The position numbers and the translations under genes were made by a program. From IMG/VR virus record IMGVR_UViG_3300025769_000608, positions 1-28,676 of that record: 28,676 nucleotides of DNA. One strand, written 5' to 3'. How positions within the stretch are numbered: position 1 is the stretch's first letter; each line of letters starts with the position of its first letter. Shown piece after piece: positions 8,101 through 28,676 of the stretch. This DNA is from a virus. The notes below the pieces were generated by a model. The model did no database searches. It was not told where the DNA came from and saw only the letters and a program-made list of their open reading frames with translations.

Positions 8101-9110
8101 TGGCAACTCCACAAGAAGTTAAACAAGAACAAATTGTAAGGTTAGCTCCTTTTCAAGAAGAATTTCTTGCCGATATTTTTGCTAGTGCAAAAGGATTGAC
8201 AGGTCCTGGCTCACAAATGCCTTTTTCTAAACAACAATTGGCAAATTTATCACCCGCTCAACAACAAGCAATAACAAGTGCAACACAAGGTGTTGGTTCT
8301 TTTCAACCTTTTTTACAAAAAGGTAGTGAAGCTATTGGTCAAGGCATTGGGGCCGTGGGCACTGGACTTGGAACAATTGGATCGGCAATAGGGCAAACTG
8401 CACAAGCAGGTTTTGACCCTTCATCTTATCAACAGTTCATGGATCCGTATACCGAAGATGTGATTGCATCAACACAAGCTGATATAGCAAGACAAGGTCA
8501 AATGCAACAAAATCAATTAGGTGCAAGTGCCGTAGGTTCTGGTGCATTTGGTGGTTCAAGACAAGGTATAGCTCAAGGTGAGATTGCAAGAAATGTTATG
8601 GATCAACAAGCACGAACTGGTGCACAGTTGAGATCACAAGGATTTGCACAAGCACAAGGTCTAGCACAACAACAAGCATCACAAGCATTAAAACAAGCAC
8701 AACTTACTGGTCAGTTAGGTCAAACAACTGGTGCTCTTGGTGCACAGATTGGACAAATGGGAACGCAAACAGCAGCTCTTGGACAGTTAGGACAACAGAT
8801 GGGTGTCCAAGATATAAACACATTGTTAGGCATTGGTGGTCTACAACAAGGTCAAGCTCAGAAACAACTTGATATTGACAAAGCCAATTCTCTTGCAGAG
8901 CAAGCACTGCCTTATCAACAAATTGGTTTTATGTCTGATATCTTCAGAGGTGTTCCATCATTACAACAAACTTATTCTAAAACCACGAGCCCTGGTCCAA
9001 GCACCACTTCTCAAATGTTAGGTTTAGGTATTGCAGGTCTTGGTGCAGCGGGTTCGGCTGGAGGTCTTGGTAATTTATTTAATTTAGGTGTAAACCCAAG
9101 GAGAGGTTAA
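8100..9110 (+). CDS. Gln-rich internal virion protein (336 aa)
   Basis: The protein is very rich in Gln, Gly and Ala. It is mostly helical, with a long Q-rich stretch (about residues 135-265: ARQGQMQQNQLGASAVGSGA ... GFAQAQGLAQQQASQALKQA). The N-terminal 45 residues (FQEEFLADIFASAKGLTGPG) and a repeated QYQQF/PYQQIGF pattern resemble internal virion proteins annotated in marine phages. The C-terminus has a short hydrophobic glycine-rich segment (LGLGIAGLGAAGSAGGLGN), possibly membrane-active. It overlaps the previous stop codon by one base and abuts the next gene. Packaging inside the capsid with ejection into the cell is the likeliest role, but this rests on context. Confidence 0.72.
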   Translation: MATPQEVKQEQIVRLAPFQEEFLADIFASAKGLTGPGSQMPFSKQQLANLSPAQQQAITSATQGVGSFQPFLQKGSEAIGQGIGAVGTGLGTIGSAIGQTAQAGFDPSSYQQFMDPYTEDVIASTQADIARQGQMQQNQLGASAVGSGAFGGSRQGIAQGEIARNVMDQQARTGAQLRSQGFAQAQGLAQQQASQALKQAQLTGQLGQTTGALGAQIGQMGTQTAALGQLGQQMGVQDINTLLGIGGLQQGQAQKQLDIDKANSLAEQALPYQQIGFMSDIFRGVPSLQQTYSKTTSPGPSTTSQMLGLGIAGLGAAGSAGGLGNLFNLGVNPRRG

Positions 9111-17187: not shown

Positions 17188-17388
17188 ATGTTATCGAATT
17201 GGTTTTATAAATTTAAGATAGGAAGAACAATTACAGCTTTACACAGTTTGGATGATGCCACGCTAAAAGATATAGGTATACACAGATCAAATATTAGATC
17301 TCATGCATACGAAATTTTTGAAAAAGAAAAACCTGTAAATGATCCTATGTCCGAGCTACATGATTTGTATGCAAAATCTACTTACTAG
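17188..17388 (+). CDS. DUF1127 (YjiS-like) small protein (66 aa)
   Basis: The central pattern LHSLDDATLKDIGIHRSNI (residues about 19-37) matches DUF1127, whose hallmark is L-x-x-L-(D/S)-D-x-x-L-x-D-I-G-x-x-R-S-x-I. DUF1127 proteins are short and mostly found in Alpha- and Gammaproteobacteria; a few have been tied to RNA turnover and stress physiology. The gene stands alone after a gap, has an AGGA ribosome-binding site nine bases before the ATG, and probably has its own promoter. It is tail to tail with the DNA polymerase, and both stop codons lie in one CTAG. It may be a captured host regulator that the phage uses on host metabolism. Confidence 0.85.
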   Translation: MLSNWFYKFKIGRTITALHSLDDATLKDIGIHRSNIRSHAYEIFEKEKPVNDPMSELHDLYAKSTY

Positions 17389-19298
17389 TCTACCTCTCCC
17401 CAATTATCACAAAGGGCAGTGTCTACTTCAAAAGGTATTTTTAAATCAGGAACACAAGTTGTCATAATTTCTACAATCTTGTCAGCTTGTTTTTGATTTT
17501 CAATATTAAAACATAATTCATCATGCACAGTTAGTGTTGGACACAATCCTTCTTTGTAACACTCAACCATAGCTTTCTTGGTTTGATCAGCACTCGATCC
17601 TTGGATTAGTCTGTTCAAAGCTTTGTAGGTGTAGGCTCTTCTGATTCTACCTTTACTTCCATATTCATTTATGGCTTCTTTCATAGGCAAGGCTTTGTTA
17701 AATCCAAAGGACACGGGTTCATACATATCAAATCTACACTTACGGCCCAACCAAGTTCTAATAACTCCATGATCTTTTGCACGATTCATAGCTTTTTCAG
17801 ATAAAGCTTTTAGAAAAGGAACTCTCTCATTATATGTATTTATTAATTTCTCTGCTTCTTCTACTTCTATATCCATGACGTTGGCTAATTTACCTTTACC
17901 CATTCCATACATAATACCTAGATTAACTGTCTTAGCTTCTTTACGTTTAATTCCTGCCATGTCCGCTACCATCTGATGAAAATCAGCAAGACCTTTACGA
18001 TAATTATCAACAACTCCATCAATCTGTGGATGTCTATCTATGCCTGTCAAGGTAGCACAATAATGAACTAACCATCTTGGTTCTTGTGATGCATAATCAA
18101 AGGAACCCCATTTGTGGCCCTCCTCCGGGATAAACAAACCACGAATTAATTTTTTGATCTCAGGATCTCGTGCAGGAATCTGTTGCAAATTGGGGTTGCT
18201 TGAACTAAATCGTCCTGTTACAGTTCCTCCACCATCAGATCTAAGGGAGTGAAAATCACAATGTATTCTACCATTATGCGAGTGTTCAAGAATAGTATCA
18301 ACAAATGTTGTATTGGCTTTGTTTATTTCTCTAATTTTTATAATCTTTTGTGCAATTGGATGAGTGTTATTAGCAAGAACTTGTTTTGTAAACATGGGAG
18401 CCCCGGACTTTTCTGTGCGAGAATACGGAAGACCCACAGCATCAAAGACCTTTGCTACAGATGTGGCGACCCACGGTTCAATCGTGACTCCAGTTTCTTT
18501 GACTATCTCTTGTATAAGTGATTTTTCTATCTTAGCTAAATCTTTCTTTGTTTTTTCTGCTTTTTGAACATCAACACGAACACCTTTAGTTTTCATCTCA
18601 AATAGTACAGGCAGTAAACTACTCTCTAATTCAAAGATACTTGTGCACTCTTCTTGAGTTATTTTTTTTCTTAAATTTTCCCAAAGCTTTAAAGTTATTA
18701 AAGCGTCTTGTTCGGCATACTTTCCGACATATCTAGGAGGCAGTTGCCACATACCAGATTTTGGATCAACACCAAACTCGGCTGCTGCAGACTTTAATAA
18801 TTTTTCATCTTTATATTCTCCAAGATAATCTCGAGCAAGAGAATTTAAATTGTACCACTTTCTATTCTCATCTAACAAAGGAGCAGCAATCATAGTATCT
18901 ATAATCTTACCCTTAACTTCTATACCCTCAGCTCTTAACCAACCTAAATCGTACAATGCATTATGAAATACTTTACTTATTGTTTCGTCTGCACAAAGTT
19001 TTGTTAACCAACTGTACACAGCATTCTTTGGCATGTTTCCTACCTTATGTGCCGTAGGGAAATACCAAGCACTGTCGCCAGCTCCAACTGCTATACCTAT
19101 TATGTATCCATCTTTTCTAGTCCACCCAGGCCCAAGAGTTAAAAGGTTTGAATCTTTTGTTTCTAAGTCAATAGATATAGTTTTATGTTGTGATAAATCT
19201 GGAAGTGTTTGAGGTGGCTCCCAATCCGTGTCTACATTTCCCCAAGAAACATCTTTTATGTCTTGATCTAGTAAGTGATATTGATCATGATTTGTCAT
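17385..19298 (-). CDS. Family A DNA polymerase with 3'-5' exonuclease domain
   Basis: This 637-residue replicative polymerase has both active sites. Exonuclease motifs: SIDLETKD (D44, E46), FHNALYDLGWL (D117) and YAEQDAL (D198). Polymerase motifs: TGRFSSSNPNLQQIPAR, motif A SFDYASQEPR (D401), motif B KRKEAKTVNLGIMYG and motif C TVHDELCF (H592, D593). Motif B has Leu (L460) where E. coli Pol I has Phe762, a position that differs between groups of marine phage polymerases. Motif A reads DYASQEPR instead of the usual DYSQIELR type. There is no 5'-3' exonuclease domain. The ATG overlaps the end of the DUF6378-like gene by 14 bases. It is the last gene of the early block. Confidence 0.97.
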   Translation of the reverse strand: MTNHDQYHLLDQDIKDVSWGNVDTDWEPPQTLPDLSQHKTISIDLETKDSNLLTLGPGWTRKDGYIIGIAVGAGDSAWYFPTAHKVGNMPKNAVYSWLTKLCADETISKVFHNALYDLGWLRAEGIEVKGKIIDTMIAAPLLDENRKWYNLNSLARDYLGEYKDEKLLKSAAAEFGVDPKSGMWQLPPRYVGKYAEQDALITLKLWENLRKKITQEECTSIFELESSLLPVLFEMKTKGVRVDVQKAEKTKKDLAKIEKSLIQEIVKETGVTIEPWVATSVAKVFDAVGLPYSRTEKSGAPMFTKQVLANNTHPIAQKIIKIREINKANTTFVDTILEHSHNGRIHCDFHSLRSDGGGTVTGRFSSSNPNLQQIPARDPEIKKLIRGLFIPEEGHKWGSFDYASQEPRWLVHYCATLTGIDRHPQIDGVVDNYRKGLADFHQMVADMAGIKRKEAKTVNLGIMYGMGKGKLANVMDIEVEEAEKLINTYNERVPFLKALSEKAMNRAKDHGVIRTWLGRKCRFDMYEPVSFGFNKALPMKEAINEYGSKGRIRRAYTYKALNRLIQGSSADQTKKAMVECYKEGLCPTLTVHDELCFNIENQKQADKIVEIMTTCVPDLKIPFEVDTALCDNWGEVD

Positions 19299-19575
19299 TT
19301 ATAATTTCTCCACCTAAAGCCGCATAGCCAATAACGTCTGTCCAAGAATCGTCTTTTGAAATATCTTCGGCAAGACGAGCTACCTTAACACCGATCATAC
19401 AAGCCACAACTTCCTCTGGAGTGATTGCACCATTTAATTTTTTATCTAATAATATAGTCCATATATCGGCTATACGTTGATGATTCTTTTTAGCAGGTCC
19501 ATACTCTTTAGCTCTTTGTCCGTTGATTAGTTTCTCTGCTTCTTTTAAAAAATATTCTCTGTCTTTCTTTATCAA
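19285..19575 (-). CDS. DUF6378-like phage protein (96 aa), TTG start
   Basis: The pattern LINGQRAKEYGPAKKNHQRI, then ADIWTILL, ITPEEVVACMIGVKVARLAE and SWTDVIGYAALGGEI fits DUF6378, a helical phage/prophage family found beside replication genes. It slightly resembles MazG-type all-alpha folds, but no function is established. The best start is TTG at 19575: GGAG lies seven bases upstream and no ATG is available in frame before a stop. The start lies inside the 57-aa gene of 19508-19681 and the end overlaps the polymerase ATG, so translation of all three is probably coupled. Confidence 0.8.
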   Translation of the reverse strand: MIKKDREYFLKEAEKLINGQRAKEYGPAKKNHQRIADIWTILLDKKLNGAITPEEVVACMIGVKVARLAEDISKDDSWTDVIGYAALGGEIINDKS

Positions 19576-19681
19576 AAGGATTCTCCATCGTTGTATCTAA
19601 TAATATGCATTCGTCATGAGCATAGCTATCCCAAAAAATATGTCCCTCTTTGTTCTTTTGTAAGATCCATATCTTTGTCAT
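19508..19681 (-). CDS. Small hypothetical protein (57 aa), coupled to the helicase stop
   Basis: This short gene fills the 102-bp gap between helicase and DUF6378-like gene. Its ATG overlaps the helicase TGA (ATGA at 19678-19681), the same layout used elsewhere in this genome. The product starts MTKIWILQKNKEGHIFWDSY and is basic toward its end (RQRIFFKRSRETNQRTKS). Its last 68 bases overlap the DUF6378-like gene in another frame. No family is recognised. The call rests on start placement, gap filling and a natural-looking N-terminal half. Confidence 0.6.
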   Translation of the reverse strand: MTKIWILQKNKEGHIFWDSYAHDECILLDTTMENPFDKERQRIFFKRSRETNQRTKS

Positions 19682-21195
19682 ATGTTAAACTTATGTAATG
19701 CGTTTGATTCAATTAAGTGCAATGTTTTTTTAGCACGAGTTGCTCCCACATAAAAAGTTCTTATCTCAGAATCTTGATCTAAACTTTCTACGCAGGCCTT
19801 GGTTGAGTCAAGAAGCAGAGCTACGTTATCCGCCTCTCCACCTTTGGCTTTGTGTATTGTCGATATCCGAATCCTCGGTTTCCCCGTTAGAATCTTCTCC
19901 CCTCGTCTCCTCACTGACATTATATATGCTACTTCCTGATCCGATACTTTCAAGACTTTCTGCCACGGAGTCTCGTGTGTAGCGTTCAAACTGCAATTCT
20001 CTATAATGTCGTCTAGAGTATAAGTTGGTTCGGTACCTATACCGAGGGACAGTAGCTTTCTCCCAAGTTTGCAAATAATATTCGGGCTCAATATTTTCGC
20101 AAAGTTCTTCAGTTCTGATGTAGACAAGCTTTGGTTTTTGCATAGTTTTAGCCATACCTCTATTCCGTTGATAACATTTGGGGAAATAGACCAACCAGTG
20201 CCCTCTCTCCAATAGAGATAGCCGTCTTCTTTAAGACGATTACATACTTTATTTGTAATGTAATTAGTTCTTGCAAGTACCAACCATTCGCCACTAGTTA
20301 AGTCTACATCAAGTATATCTCGATGCCATGTTATGGTGCCATCTTTTTTAGTGGGTTGCCAATTTTTTGTTTGTCTGGTAGAGACTTTCTTTATAAGGTT
20401 TTGAGAAAACTCATGCACGGCAGTCGGTACACGAAACGATTTTGTTAAGAATAATTTATCTTCACATGCATTTAGAAAGTCAGAAACCTTCACACCCATC
20501 CAAGTATATATAGCTTGATCGTCATCTCCAGCATAATAAACTTTTTTTGAATTAGGAACTAAAACTTCTTTGACCATCCTCCATTGTAGAGGTGCTAAAT
20601 CTTGTGCCTCGTCTATAATAAGTAAATCAAACTCGGGAGATGTGCCTTGCCATATAAATTTTTCTATCATGTCAACAAAATCTAATTTGTTTTTTGCCTT
20701 TTTATAATCACGATATCCTTTATCTAAAACTTTTAATTGTTGCCAATGTAGTGTGTGATCCCAGGCATCATTAAACTGTTGTTCTAAACTTACTTCTCTA
20801 ACACGAGCCATTTGTATAAGAGACATATATTTATCTCCACCAGCTCCTATTTGAAACAAAGGTCCCTCTTCTAAACTAATTGTCGGTGCAGATCTAAATT
20901 CTAATCCATGAAGTTTACCAAGATCATTGTAATCAGACCCTTTAAAAACTGACTTTATATCTAAGCCTAACCATGTAAAAGCAAGTGAATGTAATGTTCT
21001 AAAGTAAATCATCTGCTTTGTATCTAAACCAAGTTCTATTGCCGATCTATCTCTAGCTTCAGTTGCCGCTTTACGACTAAAAGACATGAAGGCAATCTTG
21101 GTTGGATCCATACCATCTTGTATTGATTTCTTAATTATATCAATTAAGGTTGTAGTTTTGCCTGTGCCAGGTGGTCCAAAAATTACAGTTTCCAT
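19678..21195 (-). CDS. UvrD/Rep-type SF1 DNA helicase (505 aa)
   Basis: All main SF1 motifs can be read: Walker A GPPGTGKTT (residues 7-15), motif Ia SFSRKAATEA, motif II LLIIDEAQD (DEAQD 195-199), motif III AGDDDQAIYTW (222-232), motif IV-like KSFRVP, motif V ISTIHKAKGGEADNV and motif VI FYVGATRAKKTL. It is shorter than bacterial UvrD (about 720 aa), with reduced accessory subdomains. An ATP-driven strand-unwinding role next to primase and polymerase implies replication or recombination. The ATG overlaps the primase stop by one base (TAATG). No DnaB-like helicase is in the window, so this protein or the SNF2-type one may do the fork work. Confidence 0.95.
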   Translation of the reverse strand: METVIFGPPGTGKTTTLIDIIKKSIQDGMDPTKIAFMSFSRKAATEARDRSAIELGLDTKQMIYFRTLHSLAFTWLGLDIKSVFKGSDYNDLGKLHGLEFRSAPTISLEEGPLFQIGAGGDKYMSLIQMARVREVSLEQQFNDAWDHTLHWQQLKVLDKGYRDYKKAKNKLDFVDMIEKFIWQGTSPEFDLLIIDEAQDLAPLQWRMVKEVLVPNSKKVYYAGDDDQAIYTWMGVKVSDFLNACEDKLFLTKSFRVPTAVHEFSQNLIKKVSTRQTKNWQPTKKDGTITWHRDILDVDLTSGEWLVLARTNYITNKVCNRLKEDGYLYWREGTGWSISPNVINGIEVWLKLCKNQSLSTSELKNFAKILSPNIICKLGRKLLSLGIGTEPTYTLDDIIENCSLNATHETPWQKVLKVSDQEVAYIMSVRRRGEKILTGKPRIRISTIHKAKGGEADNVALLLDSTKACVESLDQDSEIRTFYVGATRAKKTLHLIESNALHKFNI

Positions 21196-22733
21196 TAGAA
21201 TGGTGCCTCCCCTGCTTCTATTTTAAGATTGCTTACCTCTACCTCGGATGTGATTTCTGGAATCCACCAAACTCTGACAGTTTTCCAATTACCTGTAGAT
21301 GTTTTAAATTTTTTTAACACTGAACTATCCCCATTATTTATTTCTTTAATCCTCTCTTGAACTTGTGCCCTCGTATAAGTATCAAACTTTTTCTGCCTCA
21401 TGAACTCCATAAGGGATTCAAGTCTAAAGTATGTCTTACTGTCTTCTGTTTCAGTGTATGGTTTACCTAACATAATCTCTTCAAAGGTTTGTGCTTGAAC
21501 TCTACCTGTGCAATATGTTTCTAACAGAGATATAAATTGTCCTTTGTATGTAAGTTCCTCGGGTACATTTATCTCATTACAATTTTCCAATAAGCCATTA
21601 ATCTGTTCTTCCCATAAACTATCTTTTAATTTAGGAGGCATGAAATTTAATTGTTCCATACATGCTCTCTGGAATAGTCTTGGAGTTTGTAGTTCATCTG
21701 TTGTTAGTTCTAATCTTCTCCCACCTATATCCACGAACCATAGTCTTGGCTCCGATAAGATAACAGATAGTCCACTAATCGTAGGCATTGATCCAACACC
21801 GATACCATGTTTTAAAGTTCTACACACACTCTGATTACAATGAGAAGACATAGGTTCTTCTTTACAAAGATACTGATATTCTTTTTTTTCTAATGTGTTT
21901 TGTATTGCCACAACTTCTGATGCAGTAAGTGGTGGAGTAAAATCTTTTGCATTGTGTTCTTCTAATTTAGATTTCCAATCTTGAGGAAATGCTCTCTGTA
22001 AAAAAACACCAAGGTGAAAAGCAGCTCGGTTTCTTCCCCCTTCGAATATACCTATTGACATCAATGAACGTAAGCACGGAACATAATTAGGATATAATTC
22101 TACTGCCCCACCGATTGGTATCTTTAAGAAATCTTTTGGTTTCGTTTTGACTTTTTGTATCGCTTCAATGAATTCTTGTAGTGTCGCATCTTTATACGTT
22201 CCTTCTGTTTTGAGGATCGCATAGCGGAAAGTTTGCTCCGAATCAAAATACGGCAAATTAATGAAGTTACCCACATCGCCCCTCTCGACAAGAACTTGTT
22301 CTTGCTTCGGGAATATCTCACACCGACCATGCCCAAGAGCAGCAGATATTTCAGCAGCCTTGTCTCTAAAATCACTCGCATTCATCCACTCCTCAAAGAA
22401 AAAGAATATATGTGCACCACCAGATTTACTACGGCACACGATACACGGAACATTGAACTTTTCTAATTTATCTATTAATTCATTATGGTCAAGAGGATAT
22501 TGATCTATATCTAAAGCACCAAATTTACATTTGTTATCTTCATTGATAGGTATAGCACCGACACCTTGTTTACCATCTATGTGTCTTTGTACTAATTCTA
22601 ATGTTAAGGGATTTCTTACTATATAAGATTTTGCTTTTTGTTTACCAGCCATTCGTTGAGTGGACACTTCTGTCTGACCATGTGCTGATCGAAAGCCTTC
22701 AAATGCTTTCATTAATTCTTCTGCTAAATTCAC
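21195..22733 (-). CDS. Archaeo-eukaryotic-type primase (AEP/PrimPol, TOTE-like), GTG start
   Basis: The N-terminal half has the AEP catalytic signature: GALDIDQYP (D75, D77), SKSGGAHIFFFF (S104, H108) and CEIFPKQ (E139). This is the layout of the primase domain described in TOTE conflict systems and many phage primases. A Cys cluster YLCKEEPMSSHCNQSVC near residues 290-307 may bind a metal. The C-terminal 200 residues are not recognised. The protein would make primers for DNA synthesis in place of a DnaG- or T7-type primase. The start is GTG at 22733 with GGAG six bases upstream; the first in-frame ATG is seven codons later. It follows a strong terminator, so its transcript is probably limited to readthrough. 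Confidence 0.88.
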   Translation of the reverse strand: MNLAEELMKAFEGFRSAHGQTEVSTQRMAGKQKAKSYIVRNPLTLELVQRHIDGKQGVGAIPINEDNKCKFGALDIDQYPLDHNELIDKLEKFNVPCIVCRSKSGGAHIFFFFEEWMNASDFRDKAAEISAALGHGRCEIFPKQEQVLVERGDVGNFINLPYFDSEQTFRYAILKTEGTYKDATLQEFIEAIQKVKTKPKDFLKIPIGGAVELYPNYVPCLRSLMSIGIFEGGRNRAAFHLGVFLQRAFPQDWKSKLEEHNAKDFTPPLTASEVVAIQNTLEKKEYQYLCKEEPMSSHCNQSVCRTLKHGIGVGSMPTISGLSVILSEPRLWFVDIGGRRLELTTDELQTPRLFQRACMEQLNFMPPKLKDSLWEEQINGLLENCNEINVPEELTYKGQFISLLETYCTGRVQAQTFEEIMLGKPYTETEDSKTYFRLESLMEFMRQKKFDTYTRAQVQERIKEINNGDSSVLKKFKTSTGNWKTVRVWWIPEITSEVEVSNLKIEAGEAPF

Positions 22734-22746
22734 TCTTCACTCCATA

Positions 22747-22786
22747 GAAAAAAGAGCCGTGACTTGGAGGACATAGCCACGGCTCT
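22747..22786 (-). terminator. Rho-independent terminator inside the early block
   Basis: A perfect 9-bp stem AGAGCCGTG/CACGGCTCT (22753-22761 with 22778-22786) with a 16-base loop is followed on the - strand by TTTTTT. No T run follows on the + strand, so it acts on leftward transcription. It lies between the ssDNA-binding-protein gene and the primase gene and probably reduces expression of primase, helicase and polymerase. Confidence 0.88.
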
Positions 22787-22792
22787 GATTAA

Positions 22793-23584
22793 TTAAAACG
22801 GTATTTCTTCATCCTTCTGACTTGATGACATTTCATCGGCAGAAGCCGCAGCCATTTTAATTTCCCCTTTTCTAAAACTTTGATACATAGTCCTAGCCTC
22901 TAACATCATAGATTCTAGTTCCTTTGACATCTCAGTTACACGATCAACCTTATAATTATACCAACTACCTTGATCGTTGCTTTCTGCAATAGTCTTAATA
23001 GACCATGCAGTTCCGTAAAGTGGCATAGGTTTACCCGAAGGTAATCTTATACCATTCTTCATTGTGTTCCATCTACGAGAGACTTTTAACTGTGTCTTCT
23101 TCATATCAAGAACTGCTGGAGTGCTTAACTTTGTGTCGGGATCCATCACTTGCACGAGATGTTGATGTGTCCTAACCAACTCATTACCAGATGGCAAAAT
23201 TTCTGCCGCACCTTCACGAGTTGTTAAAGTTATATCCTTATCATCGGGAGATAGTTCTCTAATAAAACCACCACCACTTGATCTAAGGGCGAACTCCAGG
23301 AATTTCTTTTCAAAGAAACAAGGTACAACAATTATTCCATCATCTGCTTTGAATACTTGTTGTGACACTGTATTAAAGATATCGCCTTGTTCGGCTCCCT
23401 TTAAATACATACTGTCTTGCTTGTTTAATTGTGGCGATAATGCTTGTAGTATCCTTATGAAAGGTATTTGCATATCGTCTGTTGTGAAGTTTTCAAGACC
23501 AGCTCCAGCTTCCTCTTCAAGTAATGAAGATAAATCTGACACTGCTACTTCTGTCTTTGCTTTTTGTGCTACTGCTTGGGACAT
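22793..23584 (-). CDS. Probable ssDNA-binding protein with SSB-like acidic tail (263 aa)
   Basis: The main clue is the C-terminus: a disordered Ser/Glu stretch ending in KDEEIPF, very close to the DDDIPF tip by which bacterial SSB recruits partner proteins. The body (DMQIPFIRILQALSPQLNKQ, VPCFFEKKFLEF, SRRWNTMKNGI, PMPLYGTAWSIKT) resembles a conserved phage replication protein, but I cannot assign a named family. Its position fits: after a coiled-coil partner gene and just before a terminator that would leave it strongly expressed relative to the primase, as an ssDNA-binding protein would need. The start overlaps the previous stop (TAATG) with AGGAGG upstream. The function is inferred. Confidence 0.7.
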   Translation of the reverse strand: MSQAVAQKAKTEVAVSDLSSLLEEEAGAGLENFTTDDMQIPFIRILQALSPQLNKQDSMYLKGAEQGDIFNTVSQQVFKADDGIIVVPCFFEKKFLEFALRSSGGGFIRELSPDDKDITLTTREGAAEILPSGNELVRTHQHLVQVMDPDTKLSTPAVLDMKKTQLKVSRRWNTMKNGIRLPSGKPMPLYGTAWSIKTIAESNDQGSWYNYKVDRVTEMSKELESMMLEARTMYQSFRKGEIKMAAASADEMSSSQKDEEIPF

Positions 23585-24153
23585 TACTGACCTCCTTTTA
23601 TCTTTGCACGGTTACCAACATAAACTCCAAACGTATCGAAATCGACCTCTTGACCGTCTTCGATTCTGTTCTTTATCCATGTCCTTAAAGTCATTGGGTG
23701 TATATGAGTTTTTTGGGCAGGATTTAGCCCTTGCTTTGATAAATCATCAAGCACGGCCCCCGCTACATTATCTTGACCCATCCCAAATTGAACAACGACT
23801 TCGTTCTTAATTATATCAGCCTCGCCAATAGAACGCAGAAAGTTAAATGCTTCTGCCTTCTTATCTTCAGGAATTCTTGCTGATACAAATTTTTCTACGG
23901 AGACTTTGTTACCATCTACTGTCAGACTTTGTACTCCAAGCTCTTCCATTAATGAAGGTATGTCCTCCTCATCAATAGTTCGCTTTTTGTACTGCAAGTC
24001 TTTCAGATATTTTTCGGCATCCTTGACTTGTTTATTTAAGTCAACAGTTTGCCTAATAAGTGAAGATAGTCTTTTAGTACCATCTTCTCCAACCTTGTCA
24101 AATGCTTGAGGGTTGGCAGCTTCTTCTTCAAACAGTGAAAACACATCACTCAT
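23584..24153 (-). CDS. Conserved phage protein with N-terminal coiled coil (189 aa)
   Basis: Residues about 28-70 (LSSLIRQTVDLNKQVKDAEK, YLKDLQYKKRTIDEEDI) form a coiled coil. After it comes a small alpha/beta part with two hairpins (VQSLTVDGNKVSVEKFVSAR, ADIIKNEVVVQFG) and a C-terminal helix-rich segment (HIHPMTLRTWIKNRIEDGQE). The N-terminus is acidic and begins MSDVFSLFEEEAANPQAF. The layout recalls small phage DNA-metabolism proteins such as nuclease inhibitors, but that is only a resemblance. AAGGAG lies five bases before the ATG. It is translated together with the likely ssDNA-binding protein and may be its partner. Confidence 0.75.
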   Translation of the reverse strand: MSDVFSLFEEEAANPQAFDKVGEDGTKRLSSLIRQTVDLNKQVKDAEKYLKDLQYKKRTIDEEDIPSLMEELGVQSLTVDGNKVSVEKFVSARIPEDKKAEAFNFLRSIGEADIIKNEVVVQFGMGQDNVAGAVLDDLSKQGLNPAQKTHIHPMTLRTWIKNRIEDGQEVDFDTFGVYVGNRAKIKGGQ

Positions 24154-24207
24154 CTTTCTCTCCTTCTCGATTAAAGTTTATACCCTTCGGTATTTGGTTC
24201 TAAGGTT

Positions 24208-24387
24208 TTAACCCCTAGCTTGTATATTGTCAATAGAATTTGTCTGACTCTTTTTCCACAAAAATTCTTGCTTTGTTAGAAAAGAAATCTGACCACCTAT
24301 TGATCGATCATTGTCTTGCGACAATTCTTTTAGCATGTTCCAAGTTTTGATTGGTACTGCTACTGATTTCCATTTTTCTGAATCCAT
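24208..24387 (-). CDS. Ribbon-helix-helix DNA-binding regulator (59 aa)
   Basis: The pattern EKWKSVAVPIKTWNMLKELS then RSIGGQISFLTKQEFLW fits a ribbon-helix-helix (Arc/CopG-type) domain: one beta strand, a first helix, a turn and a second helix. Such proteins bind DNA as dimers and often repress their own promoter. I place the start at ATG 24387 (MDSEKW...), because AGGGAG lies six to seven bases upstream. The longer 70-residue reading from 24420 has no such site and would begin inside the promoter. A promoter and a perfect inverted repeat lie directly upstream. Confidence 0.75.
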   Translation of the reverse strand: MDSEKWKSVAVPIKTWNMLKELSQDNDRSIGGQISFLTKQEFLWKKSQTNSIDNIQARG

Positions 24388-24405
24388 TTGATTCTCCCTT
24401 TTAAT

Positions 24406-24419
24406 TGTTATGCCTAACA
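24406..24419. promoter_or_regulatory. Putative operator, TGTTA-N4-TAACA
   Basis: This perfect inverted repeat with five-base arms covers the -10 box of the promoter in front of the ribbon-helix-helix gene. Short symmetrical arms are usual for this regulator class. Autorepression is the natural reading, but nothing here proves binding. Confidence 0.45.
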
Positions 24420-24435
24420 TTTAATATAATGTCAA
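24407..24435 (-). promoter_or_regulatory. Internal early promoter, TTGACA-N17-CATAAC
   Basis: On the - strand, a consensus -35 TTGACA is at 24435-24430, the spacer is 17 bases and the -10 CATAAC is at 24412-24407 (four of six matches). Transcription would start about 12 bases before the ATG at 24387. It would drive the regulator, the coiled-coil protein and the ssDNA-binding protein up to the terminator at 22747-22786. Confidence 0.55.
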
Positions 24436-24453
24436 ATAATTTCTTATTTATTT

Positions 24454-24975
24454 TTATATCGCTTCTTTTAACGGATGACTTGGCTCTAAGTTTGCCTCAC
24501 ATTGTTGTATTGCAAAACTGCTTTCGTAAAGACATCTCTCAACTGCAAACTTCCATGATCTTGCCGTAATATCTGGATCATTTATAAATGCATCTTTATG
24601 TATTTTTTTAGTTACACCACGGCACATACCCACGGGAAGAAATTGTATTTTTCTCTCGGGTAAGCAAACTAGTGCTATTATATCACAATCTTCTTTCGTA
24701 TAAGCTCGTTTAGGATTACCTTTACTTGTTGTAAAACTATACTGCTTTCCAACACCTACTCCAGCTGTATTTTTTTTATATCTTTCATTAGTATGTGTAG
24801 ATGTTTTTACTTCTATTCTTAAAGCCATAGGAAGACCATGCCCTTTAGTCGCTATGATATCTGTCCCATCTTGTTTAACCAGGTCACAATGAACACCGAG
24901 CAATGATAGTTCAAAAGCCGTAAAAAGTTCTCCAGCTGTTCCCGTTAGTTTCTCTGATCTTATACCTTTAACCAT
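24454..24975 (-). CDS. PD-(D/E)XK-fold nuclease (173 aa)
   Basis: The N-terminal third shows the core of the PD-(D/E)XK nuclease fold: a helix with E16 in GTAGELFTAFELSLLG, then D39 in QDGTDIIA and E55-V-K57 in LRIEVKTST. This arrangement is found in Holliday-junction-resolvase-like and restriction-like enzymes. The C-terminal part (CDIIALVCLPERKIQFLPVG) continues the central sheet. It could resolve recombination intermediates, trim DNA before packaging, or cut host DNA. The gene overlaps the SNF2-type helicase by 16 bases, so the two are likely made together and may work on the same DNA. Confidence 0.85.
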   Translation of the reverse strand: MVKGIRSEKLTGTAGELFTAFELSLLGVHCDLVKQDGTDIIATKGHGLPMALRIEVKTSTHTNERYKKNTAGVGVGKQYSFTTSKGNPKRAYTKEDCDIIALVCLPERKIQFLPVGMCRGVTKKIHKDAFINDPDITARSWKFAVERCLYESSFAIQQCEANLEPSHPLKEAI

Positions 24976-26399
24976 TCTAATACTTCCTCTCCTAATGTTT
25001 TAGTTGCTATTTTATCCTTTTGTACCAAGGACTTAACGATGTGTACATCAACTGTGTTGGGGCACACTAAATCAACATAAAGCACGGGTTTATGTTGACC
25101 TATTCTATGACATCTATCTTCTGATTGTTTTCTTGACTCCAGGTTAAAATCATTGGAGTAATAAATTACGTTTGAGGCAGCCGTTAATGTTATACCACGG
25201 CCCCCCGTTTGTGCATTACTAACAAAGAATCTTGTCTCTGGATTTGTTTGAAAGTTATGTATTGCCGAGTCTCTATCTTCCTGGGAAGTGTCGCCATAAT
25301 AAGTGACCACGGCACCCGATCCATAGGTTTTAGCTAATTCATTTTTAATTTTTCGTATGTCATAACGAAACCTTGACCATATAATTACTTTACCATCCAT
25401 TTCTTCAATGACTTCCATCATTACTTTTATTCTGTTGTTGGCAAGTTCTACTGTCTCTCCATCATCATTAACAAGATAGCCACAAAGTAATTGTTGTAGT
25501 CTAAGAAGTCTCGTCATAACTTCGGGTGCAGTAACCATGTCTCCTTCTTCTAAAAAGATGACAGATGTTTTCTTCATACTTATGTATTGATCTATTTGTG
25601 TTGATGTTAAATCAACTTGCCGTGTTGTATAAATTTTATCGGGTAAGTCCAAGGCTTCTTTCTTGGTTGTTCTGTGAGCAAACAGTTTTAGTTTCTGTGT
25701 TAGTTCTTCCAAATTTTTATAACCAACAACTTGATTGAAACTATGATTGCCCATTCTCTGTTGTTTGACTATGGCAAATCGTCCTTGGAAAGACCAATAG
25801 CTATCATATCCAAGAAGCTTTGAATTTAGAAAAGCACATTGTGAATATAAATCCAAAGGCGATTGTGTTATTGGAGAACCCGTTAGTATTCTTTTATACT
25901 TGGCAGTCCCACCAAATTTCATTATTGCTTTTGTACGTTTCGCTTTCATGTTTTTGATTGTTGTTGACTCATCAATCGCTAACATAAATTCACTTCTGTG
26001 GGTAAACGATTCAAGGAACACGGGTGCTTTTTTAGTAACGAATGATTCTACATTCATTAATAATATTCTAAACTTATCTCTCTTGGTTGTTCCCTCTGCT
26101 AATTTTTTCTTTTCGTTCCTTGTTGCACTAGCTTTCCATAAATATATATCGGGATCCATATCATCGGGTAAATGAATTGGTATCTCATTGTTTTTCCAAT
26201 TCATATAGACACCTTTTGGTGCGACTATAATTGCCGTATCAATTAATTTCTGCTGCCATAACCAATAGATGTTATCGAGTAATACTTTTGATTTACCACA
26301 ACCCATCTCCATAAAGTATGCAAAATTTTTCTTGTCATAACTTTTTTGTAAAGCCTCCTCTTGATGAGCATAAGGCTTTGTCTTGTATTTGAATTGCAT
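24960..26399 (-). CDS. SNF2-type SF2 DNA helicase/translocase (479 aa)
   Basis: Helicase motifs are clear: Q-like YAHQEEAL near residue 10, Walker A MGCGKSKV (K36), motif Ia IIVAPKGVYMNW, motif II AIDEST (D143, E144), motif III LTGSPITQSPLDLYSQ (from 172), motif IV KVIIWSRFRYDI, motif V GGRGITLTAASNVIYY and motif VI QSEDRCHRIGQ (425-435). The last is diagnostic for SNF2. It is a minimal version without accessory domains. Related phage proteins are thought to remodel or unwind DNA during replication or recombination. An AAGGGG ribosome-binding site precedes the ATG. No DnaB-like helicase is visible, so this may be a main helicase of the phage. Confidence 0.93.
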   Translation of the reverse strand: MQFKYKTKPYAHQEEALQKSYDKKNFAYFMEMGCGKSKVLLDNIYWLWQQKLIDTAIIVAPKGVYMNWKNNEIPIHLPDDMDPDIYLWKASATRNEKKKLAEGTTKRDKFRILLMNVESFVTKKAPVFLESFTHRSEFMLAIDESTTIKNMKAKRTKAIMKFGGTAKYKRILTGSPITQSPLDLYSQCAFLNSKLLGYDSYWSFQGRFAIVKQQRMGNHSFNQVVGYKNLEELTQKLKLFAHRTTKKEALDLPDKIYTTRQVDLTSTQIDQYISMKKTSVIFLEEGDMVTAPEVMTRLLRLQQLLCGYLVNDDGETVELANNRIKVMMEVIEEMDGKVIIWSRFRYDIRKIKNELAKTYGSGAVVTYYGDTSQEDRDSAIHNFQTNPETRFFVSNAQTGGRGITLTAASNVIYYSNDFNLESRKQSEDRCHRIGQHKPVLYVDLVCPNTVDVHIVKSLVQKDKIATKTLGEEVLEWLKV

Positions 26400-26408
26400 A
26401 TTGTCCCC

Positions 26409-26789
26409 TTATATGTCGTTGAGTAATGATGAACTCGCTGATTGTCTTGTCGTTCTCTTTCCTCTGTATGGCTCTTCGGGTTTAACTGCATCAGGATGAT
26501 CAGTTCCACTCCAATCCCAATCTGGTAATTCTCTTTCTTCTTCTGTTGTTAAGTAAGGTCCCCAATAACCACCCCAACCATCAAGAAAATTTCTTTCTTT
26601 TCTTTTCCAACCTTCAAGTTTTGCTATCTTCTGAATCGTCTCCCCATCCGTCCCAATCTGGCTCGAAATGGATTGTGTATCTCTCCCCACCTCCCACATC
26701 TTCTTCGCTACTGCTACTGCTAGGTGTGGATGGTTTGGGAAAAGGGATGACGTTATCTCTAACTTTAGAGTGTATACCTTTTTTTTCAT
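26409..26789 (-). CDS. Putative helix-turn-helix protein (126 aa), overlapping another gene
   Basis: Residues about 24-62 (AVAVAKKMWEVGRDTQSISS, then QIGTDGETIQKIAKLEGWKR) look like a helix-turn-helix of the kind found in small phage regulators and terminase-like proteins. The C-terminal half is rich in Trp, Glu and Pro (GWGGYWGPYL, ELPDWDWSGTDHPDAV). Positions 26614-26789 are also covered by another gene in a different frame. The ATG at 26789 has only a weak ribosome-binding site. The C-terminal half (26409-26613) has no competing gene and is most secure; the N-terminal half could be reached from ATG or by a frameshift. I favour a true overlap. Confidence 0.6.
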   Translation of the reverse strand: MKKKVYTLKLEITSSLFPNHPHLAVAVAKKMWEVGRDTQSISSQIGTDGETIQKIAKLEGWKRKERNFLDGWGGYWGPYLTTEEERELPDWDWSGTDHPDAVKPEEPYRGKRTTRQSASSSLLNDI

Positions 26790-27229: not shown

Positions 27230-27505
27230 TTATCCTCCTATTAATTCTTCAAGCTCAAAATCACTTAATGTTTCCAAATAACTTGGATCATCAAATGGAT
27301 CAAGAGGTTTTACTTTCGGCTTTCTTACCTTTACTGTTTCTTTCACAACAACTGTCTTTACAACAGTCGCCTCTGTTAACACTTGTTCTATTGTATTAAA
27401 CCTATGTCCACAATCACTACACTTACGTCTTCTTTTGACGGCAGATGTTTCTTGAGGTCTGCTATCTACAACAGACGTAGCACTATTACATTTTACACAA
27501 TTCAT
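27230..27505 (-). CDS. NrdR-like zinc-ribbon protein without ATP-cone (91 aa)
   Basis: The N-terminal 40 residues (MNCVKCNSATSVVDSRPQET, then RRRKCSDCGHRFNTIE) closely follow the zinc ribbon of the repressor NrdR: C3/C6 and C29/C32, VDSRP, and the basic RRR before the second pair. Normal NrdR continues with an ATP-cone that senses nucleotides. Here the rest is a short linker (VVKTVVVKETVKVRKPKVKP) and an acidic tail (DFELEELIGG). It could bind NrdR boxes of the host without the regulatory switch, or simply be a nucleic-acid-binding ribbon. The ATG follows an ATAAGGGG ribosome-binding site. Confidence 0.8.
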   Translation of the reverse strand: MNCVKCNSATSVVDSRPQETSAVKRRRKCSDCGHRFNTIEQVLTEATVVKTVVVKETVKVRKPKVKPLDPFDDPSYLETLSDFELEELIGG

Positions 27506-27960: not shown

Positions 27961-28018
27961 TAATTTATATAGTATTTCTCTCATAATTTTTTATTTTATT
28001 TTTATTTTTTTCAAAATA
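27961..28018. other. AT-rich tract of the divergent control region
   Basis: This 58-base stretch is nearly all A and T, including a T-rich run at 27987-28012. It lies between the early promoter and the repeat clusters and contains no gene. Such a tract beside short repeats is typical of an easily melted origin segment, but can equally be a curved promoter region. Confidence 0.5.
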
Positions 28019-28019
28019 G

Positions 28020-28043
28020 GTGTACAAGTGTACAAGTGTACAA
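28020..28043 (+). repeat. Three tandem copies of GTGTACAA
   Basis: Units at 28020-28027, 28028-28035 and 28036-28043 are identical, and each contains the palindrome TGTACA. The junctions form CAAGTGT twice, the reverse complement of the ACACTTG core repeated at 28077-28111. The cluster lies in the gap between early block and terminase gene and may bind a protein. Confidence 0.9.
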
Positions 28044-28076
28044 ATTCTTCTGTAATCGTTAGTAGAGTTTAAATAG

Positions 28077-28111
28077 TATGGCACACTTGTATGGCACACT
28101 TGGCACACTTG
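28077..28111 (+). repeat. Tandem TATGGCACACTTG units (two full, one partial)
   Basis: Full 13-base units are at 28077-28089 and 28090-28102, followed by a partial copy GCACACTTG at 28103-28111. The core ACACTTG is the reverse complement of CAAGTGT in the cluster at 28020-28043, so the two clusters face each other. The full 13-mer occurs once more in the tail gene at 6461-6473. Confidence 0.9.
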
Positions 28112-28154
28112 AGTAGGACAAACTGAAGCCGCAAACATTTTTTTTCGTTTTGAA

Positions 28155-28183
28155 TTGAAATAATATGAGAATAAACCTATTAT
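28155..28183 (+). promoter_or_regulatory. Terminase promoter, TTGAAA-N17-TATTAT
   Basis: The -35 box TTGAAA is at 28155-28160, the spacer is 17 bases and the -10 box TATTAT is at 28178-28183. The terminase ATG at 28190 lies six bases after the -10 box, where transcription is expected to begin, and no ribosome-binding site is present. Boxes and spacing are identical to those of the promoter at 7317-7345. Confidence 0.65.
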
Positions 28184-28189
28184 ATTTTT

Positions 28190-28676
28190 ATGGCTAAAGA
28201 AAAATTCCTTACTAATAGACAAAAAGAATTTTGCAAACTTGTTTGTGAAGGCATCTACAGTAATGCCGAATGTGCGAGAAGAGCAGGTTATTCCGAAGGA
28301 CAAGCATATAAAACTGCAAGTCTTTTGTTGAATGGTCGTGACTTCCCTTTGGTAACTGAACATCTTAAAGAACTCCGAGAGATTAGAGAAAAGAAATATG
28401 GTGTTAGTCTTATAGGTCAACTCAAACGTCTTCATGATTTAAGTCGTGGTGCAGAGGCAGAAGGTCAATTCTCATCTGCGATTAATGCCGAGAAGATACG
28501 CTCTGCACTTGGAGGTTTAACTATAGATCGAAGAGAAACAACGCATCAATTAGATCAATTATCTCGTGAAGAAATAGTAGCCAGACTCTCTGAAATAAGA
28601 AAACAACATCCATCTGCTTTTATTGAAGGTGATTTTAAGGTGGTCGGAGAGGATAAGGGGAGGACAAAACTCTCCG
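28190..28676 (+). CDS. terS: Terminase small subunit (3' partial)
   Basis: The open frame runs off the right edge after 162 codons. The N-terminal pattern LTNRQKEFCKLVCEGIYSNA then ECARRAGYSEGQAYKTASLL matches the helix-turn-helix domain of Terminase_2-type small subunits. These recognise the packaging site on the concatemer and hand DNA to the large subunit. The middle (HLKELREIREKKYGVSLIGQ, LKRLHDLSRGAEAEGQFSSA) is the usual helical oligomerisation part. There is no ribosome-binding site and the ATG is at the predicted transcription start, so leaderless initiation is likely. A GGGGAGG stretch at 28657-28663 may serve the large terminase gene beyond the edge. Repeats just upstream could be its binding site. 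Confidence 0.88.
   Translation, partial: MAKEKFLTNRQKEFCKLVCEGIYSNAECARRAGYSEGQAYKTASLLLNGRDFPLVTEHLKELREIREKKYGVSLIGQLKRLHDLSRGAEAEGQFSSAINAEKIRSALGGLTIDRRETTHQLDQLSREEIVARLSEIRKQHPSAFIEGDFKVVGEDKGRTKLS
28645..28676. repeat. Seven-base inverted repeat CGGAGAG/CTCTCCG at the right edge
   Basis: CGGAGAG (28645-28651) and CTCTCCG (28670-28676) are exact reverse complements, separated by 18 bases that include the ribosome-binding-like GGGGAGG. The hairpin would hold that site in its loop. The right arm ends exactly at the window end, so its full extent is unknown. Confidence 0.5.

Follow-up and report, generated by a model that had tools for sequence, protein, structure and literature searches.

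A putative phage replication origin whose iteron type varies together with the predicted winged helix of an AEP primase

Iteron systems and the layout of the locus

The SCCmec initiator Cch2 needs three AAGTG iterons (PMC7581432), and the origin of lambdoid phages presents four to six iterons next to an AT-rich region (PMC7466680). In the PLE replicons of Vibrio, initiator specificity changes along with the iterons and modules are exchanged, with the iteron-targeting ICP1 nuclease Odn as a selective force (PMC8263062). Closely related geminiviruses likewise have different iterons recognized by the cognate Rep (PMC12548392), while for the PolpTN2-like and PrimQH AEPs origin recognition through a recognition helix and a wing has been proposed (PMC5862659). 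Here we describe an array of short facing repeats in a viral DNA stretch of 28,676 nucleotides (IMG/VR record IMGVR_UViG_3300025769_000608, the whole of which is referred to as the window). Comparison of sequences makes it very probable that this site is a phage replication origin and that its iterons are recognized by the phage's AEP primase through a predicted winged helix at its C-terminus.

The nearest annotated DNA matches of the window are weak and are to Pelagibacter phages of the HTVC023P/027P type; we regard the phage as a member of an abundant uncultured SAR11-type marine clade. HTVC027P has been described as obligately lytic (PMC12753301). The iterons stand between a leftward replication operon and terS, which lies to their right (Table 1). 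Direct reading bore out the preliminary description of the array exactly: three GTGTACAA units, a 33-nt gap, then two exact inverted units and one partial, with the heptamer CAAGTGT (two copies, at 28026 and 28034) facing ACACTTG (three copies, at 28083, 28096 and 28105). A run of three exact tandem 8-mers is found at one place in the window and in 0 of 200 Markov-simulated windows, and the only instance in the window of a 7-mer with at least five copies, both strands counted, within 130 nt is the iteron site itself (0 of 20 simulated windows). The site is thus a compact noncoding region with several short direct repeats, as in iteron origins. The AT-rich tract placed on one side of the repeats by the same description does adjoin them, again as in iteron origins, and its composition is reached by 0.06% of 44-nt windows; relatives also carry a T/A-rich tract at the site. 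GC skew tracks gene strand and does not mark the iteron site. A 156-aa open frame antisense to terS runs through the iterons (27965-28435, minus strand) and recurs in several relatives; what it reads from the iterons differs between types, and it is probably a chance frame.

Promoters had been proposed on both sides of the repeats. The pair of mirrored promoter-like motifs stands, since the terS promoter TTGAAA-17-TATTAT and the mirrored core on the left recur in most relatives, where the motif is essentially confined to the flanks of the iteron site; generic sigma-70 matches in the region, on the other hand, equal the shuffle mean (7 against 7.0). In the window TTGAAA-17-TATTAT stops about 7 nt short of the terS ATG (28155-28190), which would place the transcription start at or near that ATG, and the terS mRNA is possibly leaderless. 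A T7-like promoter reading of the CACTATA motif was rejected, the motif being essentially restricted to this site, and the window proteins that were scanned gave no match to a phage RNA polymerase family.

Table 1. Positions of the iteron site, of the genes discussed and of second arrays in other phage records.
Feature	Position	Strand	Remarks
Leftward replication operon	17385..26399	-	DNA polymerase A, UvrD-like helicase, primase, Pam3 gp34-like and gp33-like proteins, SNF2-type helicase
AEP-type primase, 512 aa	21195..22733	-	Proposed iteron-reading initiator
Predicted winged helix, primase residues 438-492	21258..21422	-	AlphaFold2 and covariation
Ribbon-helix-helix (RHH) protein	24208-24420		Rejected as specificity factor
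HTH protein	26409-26789		Rejected as specificity factor
NrdR-like zinc ribbon	27230-27505		Rejected as specificity factor
Left promoter-like motif copy	27969..27996	-	AATTATGAGAGAAA...CTATATAA read leftward; one of an inverted pair
AT-rich tract	27975..28018		91% AT over 44 nt; candidate DNA-unwinding element
Left iteron cluster	28020..28043	+	Three tandem 8-bp GTGTACAA units (28020-28027, 28028-28035, 28036-28043)
Spacer	28044..28076		33 nt, between left and right clusters
Right iteron cluster	28077..28111	-	Three inverted units, reverse complement AAGTGTGCCA, spacing 13 and 9: TATGGCACACTTG at 28077-28089 and 28090-28102, partial GGCACACTTG at 28102-28111
Right promoter-like motif copy	28153..28183	+	Contains TTGAAA-17-TATTAT (28155-28183)
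terS, small terminase	28190..28675	+	PHROG 51 (E 7e-13), Pfam Terminase_2; runs off the window
Second iteron-type arrays, gamma-proteobacterial phages	L261 43644-43873; L262 14182-14304; L260 43038-43139

Concerted change of repeat type and its match in the primase

A terS search gave 78 loci, and the geometry of the site was judged wherever the region upstream of terS was readable. Three direct and three inverted units, with a GTGT core or close variant and the same spacing, are kept in all readable relatives but the distant L078; among close relatives the spacer is near constant in length and variable in sequence. The variable bases of the unit fall into discrete types (ACAA, AACA, ATAA, GACG, AACG, AACC, AATG, AGAA, AGCA and others), and type changes in a concerted manner, with single bases altered across copies of both orientations and between-copy differences persisting through the switches (AACGA vs GACGA; AACG vs AATG). 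The joint change of both orientations, while other between-copy differences persist, argues for a common reader rather than slippage. The middle right unit is often mismatched to type, and in one relative, L054, the left and right clusters carry different types. No second type-specific cluster was found elsewhere in the pelagiphage genomes. Comparison with relatives had been put forward in the preliminary description, with repeats scrambled between conserved flanks as the outcome that would speak against a control site; geometry is indeed kept, but the repeats do change despite conserved flanks, and that criterion taken literally would have led to rejection of the site. The change in close relatives is nevertheless a concerted switch matched in the proposed initiator and not decay. 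A more distant relative (L069, 4681-4930) has left units GTGTTACAA and right units GTGGGACAA, with additional TTTGTCCCACTTCT copies at the terS promoter.

Longer loci containing both the iteron site and the primase were compared for type-linked residues, and a few residues of the primase C-terminus were found to switch with type in different backgrounds. AACA goes with R475, S/T483 and I486, AACC with K475, W483 and T485, AGAA with S485, AGCA with N485 and AACG with N475 and S485, the latter combination also being found in most ATAA phages; it is the type of the left cluster that the primase wing matches. When the variable columns of 12 proteins (1,643 columns, 33 dereplicated genomes) were ranked by partial Mantel correlation, the top two were primase 485 (r=0.60) and 475 (r=0.53), the next reaching 0.37, and primase 465-490 held five of the seven top-ranked columns (hypergeometric P 6e-10, which is indicative only, columns and genomes being non-independent). 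A difference at 475 or 485 is present in each of the 12 disjoint type-discordant genome pairs, but in only one of 11 concordant pairs. In three close pairs (L167/L185, L154/L147 and L168/L158) the iterons are 17-23% and the winged-helix codons 12-16% different, against 1.5-4.3% for the DNA between them; for L167 (AACA) and L185 (AGAA) the site has diverged by 17% and the codons by 14.6%, the intervening 5.5 kb by about 1.5%. Such joint divergence was not seen in type-concordant pairs. L167 and L185 also diverge in some other short stretches, among them 1.5 kb beyond the primase as seen from the site; the iteron and winged-helix islands are therefore not their sole differences.

These computations show directly that the array exists, that it varies in a concerted manner and that it is coupled specifically to the wing of the primase. 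Coupling of the iteron site and the primase is strongly supported by the sequence comparisons, and by covariation the predicted DNA-binding domain of the primase fits the repeats as that of a cognate initiator would. In line with this, T485S is the only wing difference between L158 (AACC) and L185 (AGAA). The map from residue to base is not one to one. The close relatives L141 and L142 have two different wings with the same iterons. The window's own wing (K475, W483, T485, V486) is that of the AACC type, yet its units are ACAA/GCCA, so other positions must contribute.

The predicted reader and its homologues

The primase matches Pfam AEP-TOTE (E 3e-19) and PHROG 21866, primase (E 1e-79), and Foldseek pairs its N-terminal part with the CAPP Prim-Pol domain (E 4e-10); it contains an AEP catalytic domain and no recognized helicase domain, the helicases being separate genes. 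AlphaFold2 places helices at residues 438-447 and 455-466 and the strands of a beta-hairpin wing at 471-477 and 483-492. Helix 455-466 corresponds to the near-invariant TRAQVQERIKEIN, while the type-tracking residues 475, 483, 485 and 486 sit on the predicted wing, so that the modelled C-terminal topology is that of a winged helix with the specificity residues on its wing. The C-terminal domain has a pLDDT of about 80 within a whole-protein model of modest confidence (pLDDT 64, pTM 0.44). Searched alone, this domain gave no significant Foldseek (best E 0.14) or Pfam match, and several of its weak Foldseek hits are winged-helix proteins. PriCT-1 scores above the Pfam cut-off in an Acinetobacter homologue only and was not reported in the window protein.

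Twenty-five annotated phage records contain homologues of the primase, with identities of roughly 24-39%; those in phages of Salmonella, Klebsiella, Pseudomonas, Providencia and Acinetobacter are at 27-30%. Directly upstream of the primase gene, direct-plus-inverted 8-bp arrays are present in PMBT28 (Salmonella), PSA28 (Pseudomonas), K21lambda1 and VLCpiS6a (Klebsiella), Kokobel2 (Providencia) and several Acinetobacter phages, spelled TGGAACGG (as in one array of three copies plus two inverted), TGGAACC, GAGCAACC, GAGTAACC or GGTAAC. Wing sequence varies broadly with the unit in the Acinetobacter phages; Bhz9 and Bhz20 have a common wing and partly different units. PMBT28, Kokobel2 and SH-Ab 15497, gamma-proteobacterial phages with a homologous primase, carry a second iteron-type array elsewhere, which in SH-Ab 15497 lies just upstream of terS; because these three have two arrays, a role besides initiation is possible. 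Upstream of terS, psg01 has a TGGCACAC array and the cultured pelagiphage HTVC023P five direct ACTAGGAAAA repeats (L082 7776-7867), which are a candidate origin with a different unit; no comparable array was found in the corresponding region of HTVC027P. A palindrome, ATGTCACAnnnTGTGACAT, recurs upstream of terL in four records (G003 at about 9040-9090, which is the L088/L089 record, G002, G005 and G015) and looks like a separate operator, being constant across iteron types in those records.

We propose that the C-terminal winged helix of the AEP primase would bind the six facing iterons, with the recognition helix TRAQVQERIKEIN reading the invariant GTGT core and the beta-hairpin wing (475, 483, 485, 486) the variable bases. 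Once bound, the primases would melt the AT-rich DNA next to the iterons and make the first primers, together with the helicases and DNA polymerase A that the same leftward operon encodes. Unit sequence would define the origin type, and a new type would arise by joint replacement of iterons and winged helix. That the primase physically binds, melts and primes at the site is inferred; origin function is deduced from the partner being a primase, from the AT-rich tract, from the uniqueness of the site and from the place of the array beside the primase gene in distant phages.

Of the three roles offered for the site in the preliminary description, origin, early/late switch or pac site, the first is thus the best supported and the other two less so. 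Primase binding here could serve mainly to regulate the divergent promoters. That the site is an operator or early/late switch without origin function, through which the primase or another regulator controls the promoters of the leftward operon and of terS, is nevertheless unlikely: replication initiators often autoregulate and the array does lie between mirrored promoter-like motifs, but the AT-rich tract and the primase as determinant are left unaccounted for, and the RHH, HTH and zinc-ribbon regulators do not vary with the operator type. Between phages of different repeat types the RHH protein is identical, the zinc ribbon differs by one residue, and the HTH protein is identical or near-identical. 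The small leftward ORFs, the SNF2 helicase and the C5 methylase were rejected as specificity factors on the same grounds, all nearby gene products being identical or about 99% identical across types, and the genes 3 to 9 kb to the right of terS follow phylogenetic background, not type. The zinc-ribbon ORF is present in some relatives and was not detected in others, in which its slot is often occupied by an ORF of 100-113 aa; relatives (L004, L018, L011, L027) also share a conserved C5 DNA methylase-like gene, which is encoded on the strand opposite to terS and just to its right, at about 1.1-2.2 kb in L004.

It is quite improbable that the site is a pac or cos site, with headful packaging beginning where the small terminase from the neighbouring gene on the right binds the repeats. 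Pac sites are often in or near terS, and arrays lie immediately upstream of terS in this clade, in psg01 and in HTVC023P; however, TerS is identical over 165 aa in L001-L009, whose repeats are AACA, ATAA and GACGA, so that the type cannot be set by TerS; it is tracked by the primase wing, and the gamma-proteobacterial phages have one array at the primase gene, far from terS. The small terminase, ribbon-helix-helix and zinc-ribbon proteins, the candidates named in the preliminary description, must therefore be abandoned as setters of repeat type; the likely partner, the AEP primase, was absent from that list. Finally, tandem short repeats homogenize readily and a long hairpin can form from the strand across the site (z -1.7 to -5.8), but a site with no trans-acting reader, its copies kept alike by replication slippage, template switching or pairing of the inverted clusters, is highly improbable given the single-base changes in all copies of both orientations described above and the tight coupling to primase residues 5 kb away, which neither mechanism predicts. 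An RNA hairpin as the role of the site was also rejected, as it folds well but through invariant cores and L006 breaks the fold.

Significance and comparison with known systems

The locus provides a proposed replication origin, and a candidate reader for it, for an abundant uncultured SAR11-type phage clade, together with comparative evidence for origin recognition by the C-terminal winged helix of an AEP primase, which in the literature searched had been a prediction. Natural single-residue variants (T485S, with AACC vs AGAA origins) make the specificity code testable, and the Acinetobacter, Klebsiella and Salmonella phages with similar arrays are cultivable models. That phages nearly identical elsewhere differ in type suggests that origin identity is under selection, as is known from satellite and plasmid replicons. 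More tentatively, the origin types, of which there are at least eight spellings, might act like incompatibility or immunity groups, switched by co-replacing two distant islands, the 90-bp origin and the primase winged-helix codons; the pressure to switch could come from competitors, satellites or nucleases recognizing a given origin in co-infection.

In SaPI and SCCmec (Cch2) the C-terminal domain of the initiator binds short iterons, as is proposed here, and the AAGTG core of SCCmec is also found within the AAGTGT units here; the SaPI/SCCmec initiator is a helicase, however, whereas the proposed reader of the present site is a primase with the helicases encoded separately. Lambdoid origins share the arrangement of phage iterons beside an AT-rich region, but the lambdoid initiator O is no primase and is encoded by the very gene that contains the iterons, while this site is intergenic, 5.3 kb from the AEP primase gene, and involves no O-family initiator with an origin inside its gene. 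The iterons of lambda and Stx phages are nearly identical, whereas the units here change between close relatives. Iteron/initiator covariation is common to PLE and the phages described here, although PLE uses the RepA_N initiators of phage satellites. Different iterons among close relatives are also a trait of the geminiviruses, which are ssDNA viruses with a rolling-circle Rep unrelated to the primase. A possible parallel in architecture is offered by the PolpTN2-like and PrimQH proteins of mobile elements, which combine an AEP domain, PriCT and a C-terminal winged helix; for these, origin recognition is a prediction, whereas here the iterons are identified, the wing residues covary with them, and the carriers are lytic-type tailed phages.
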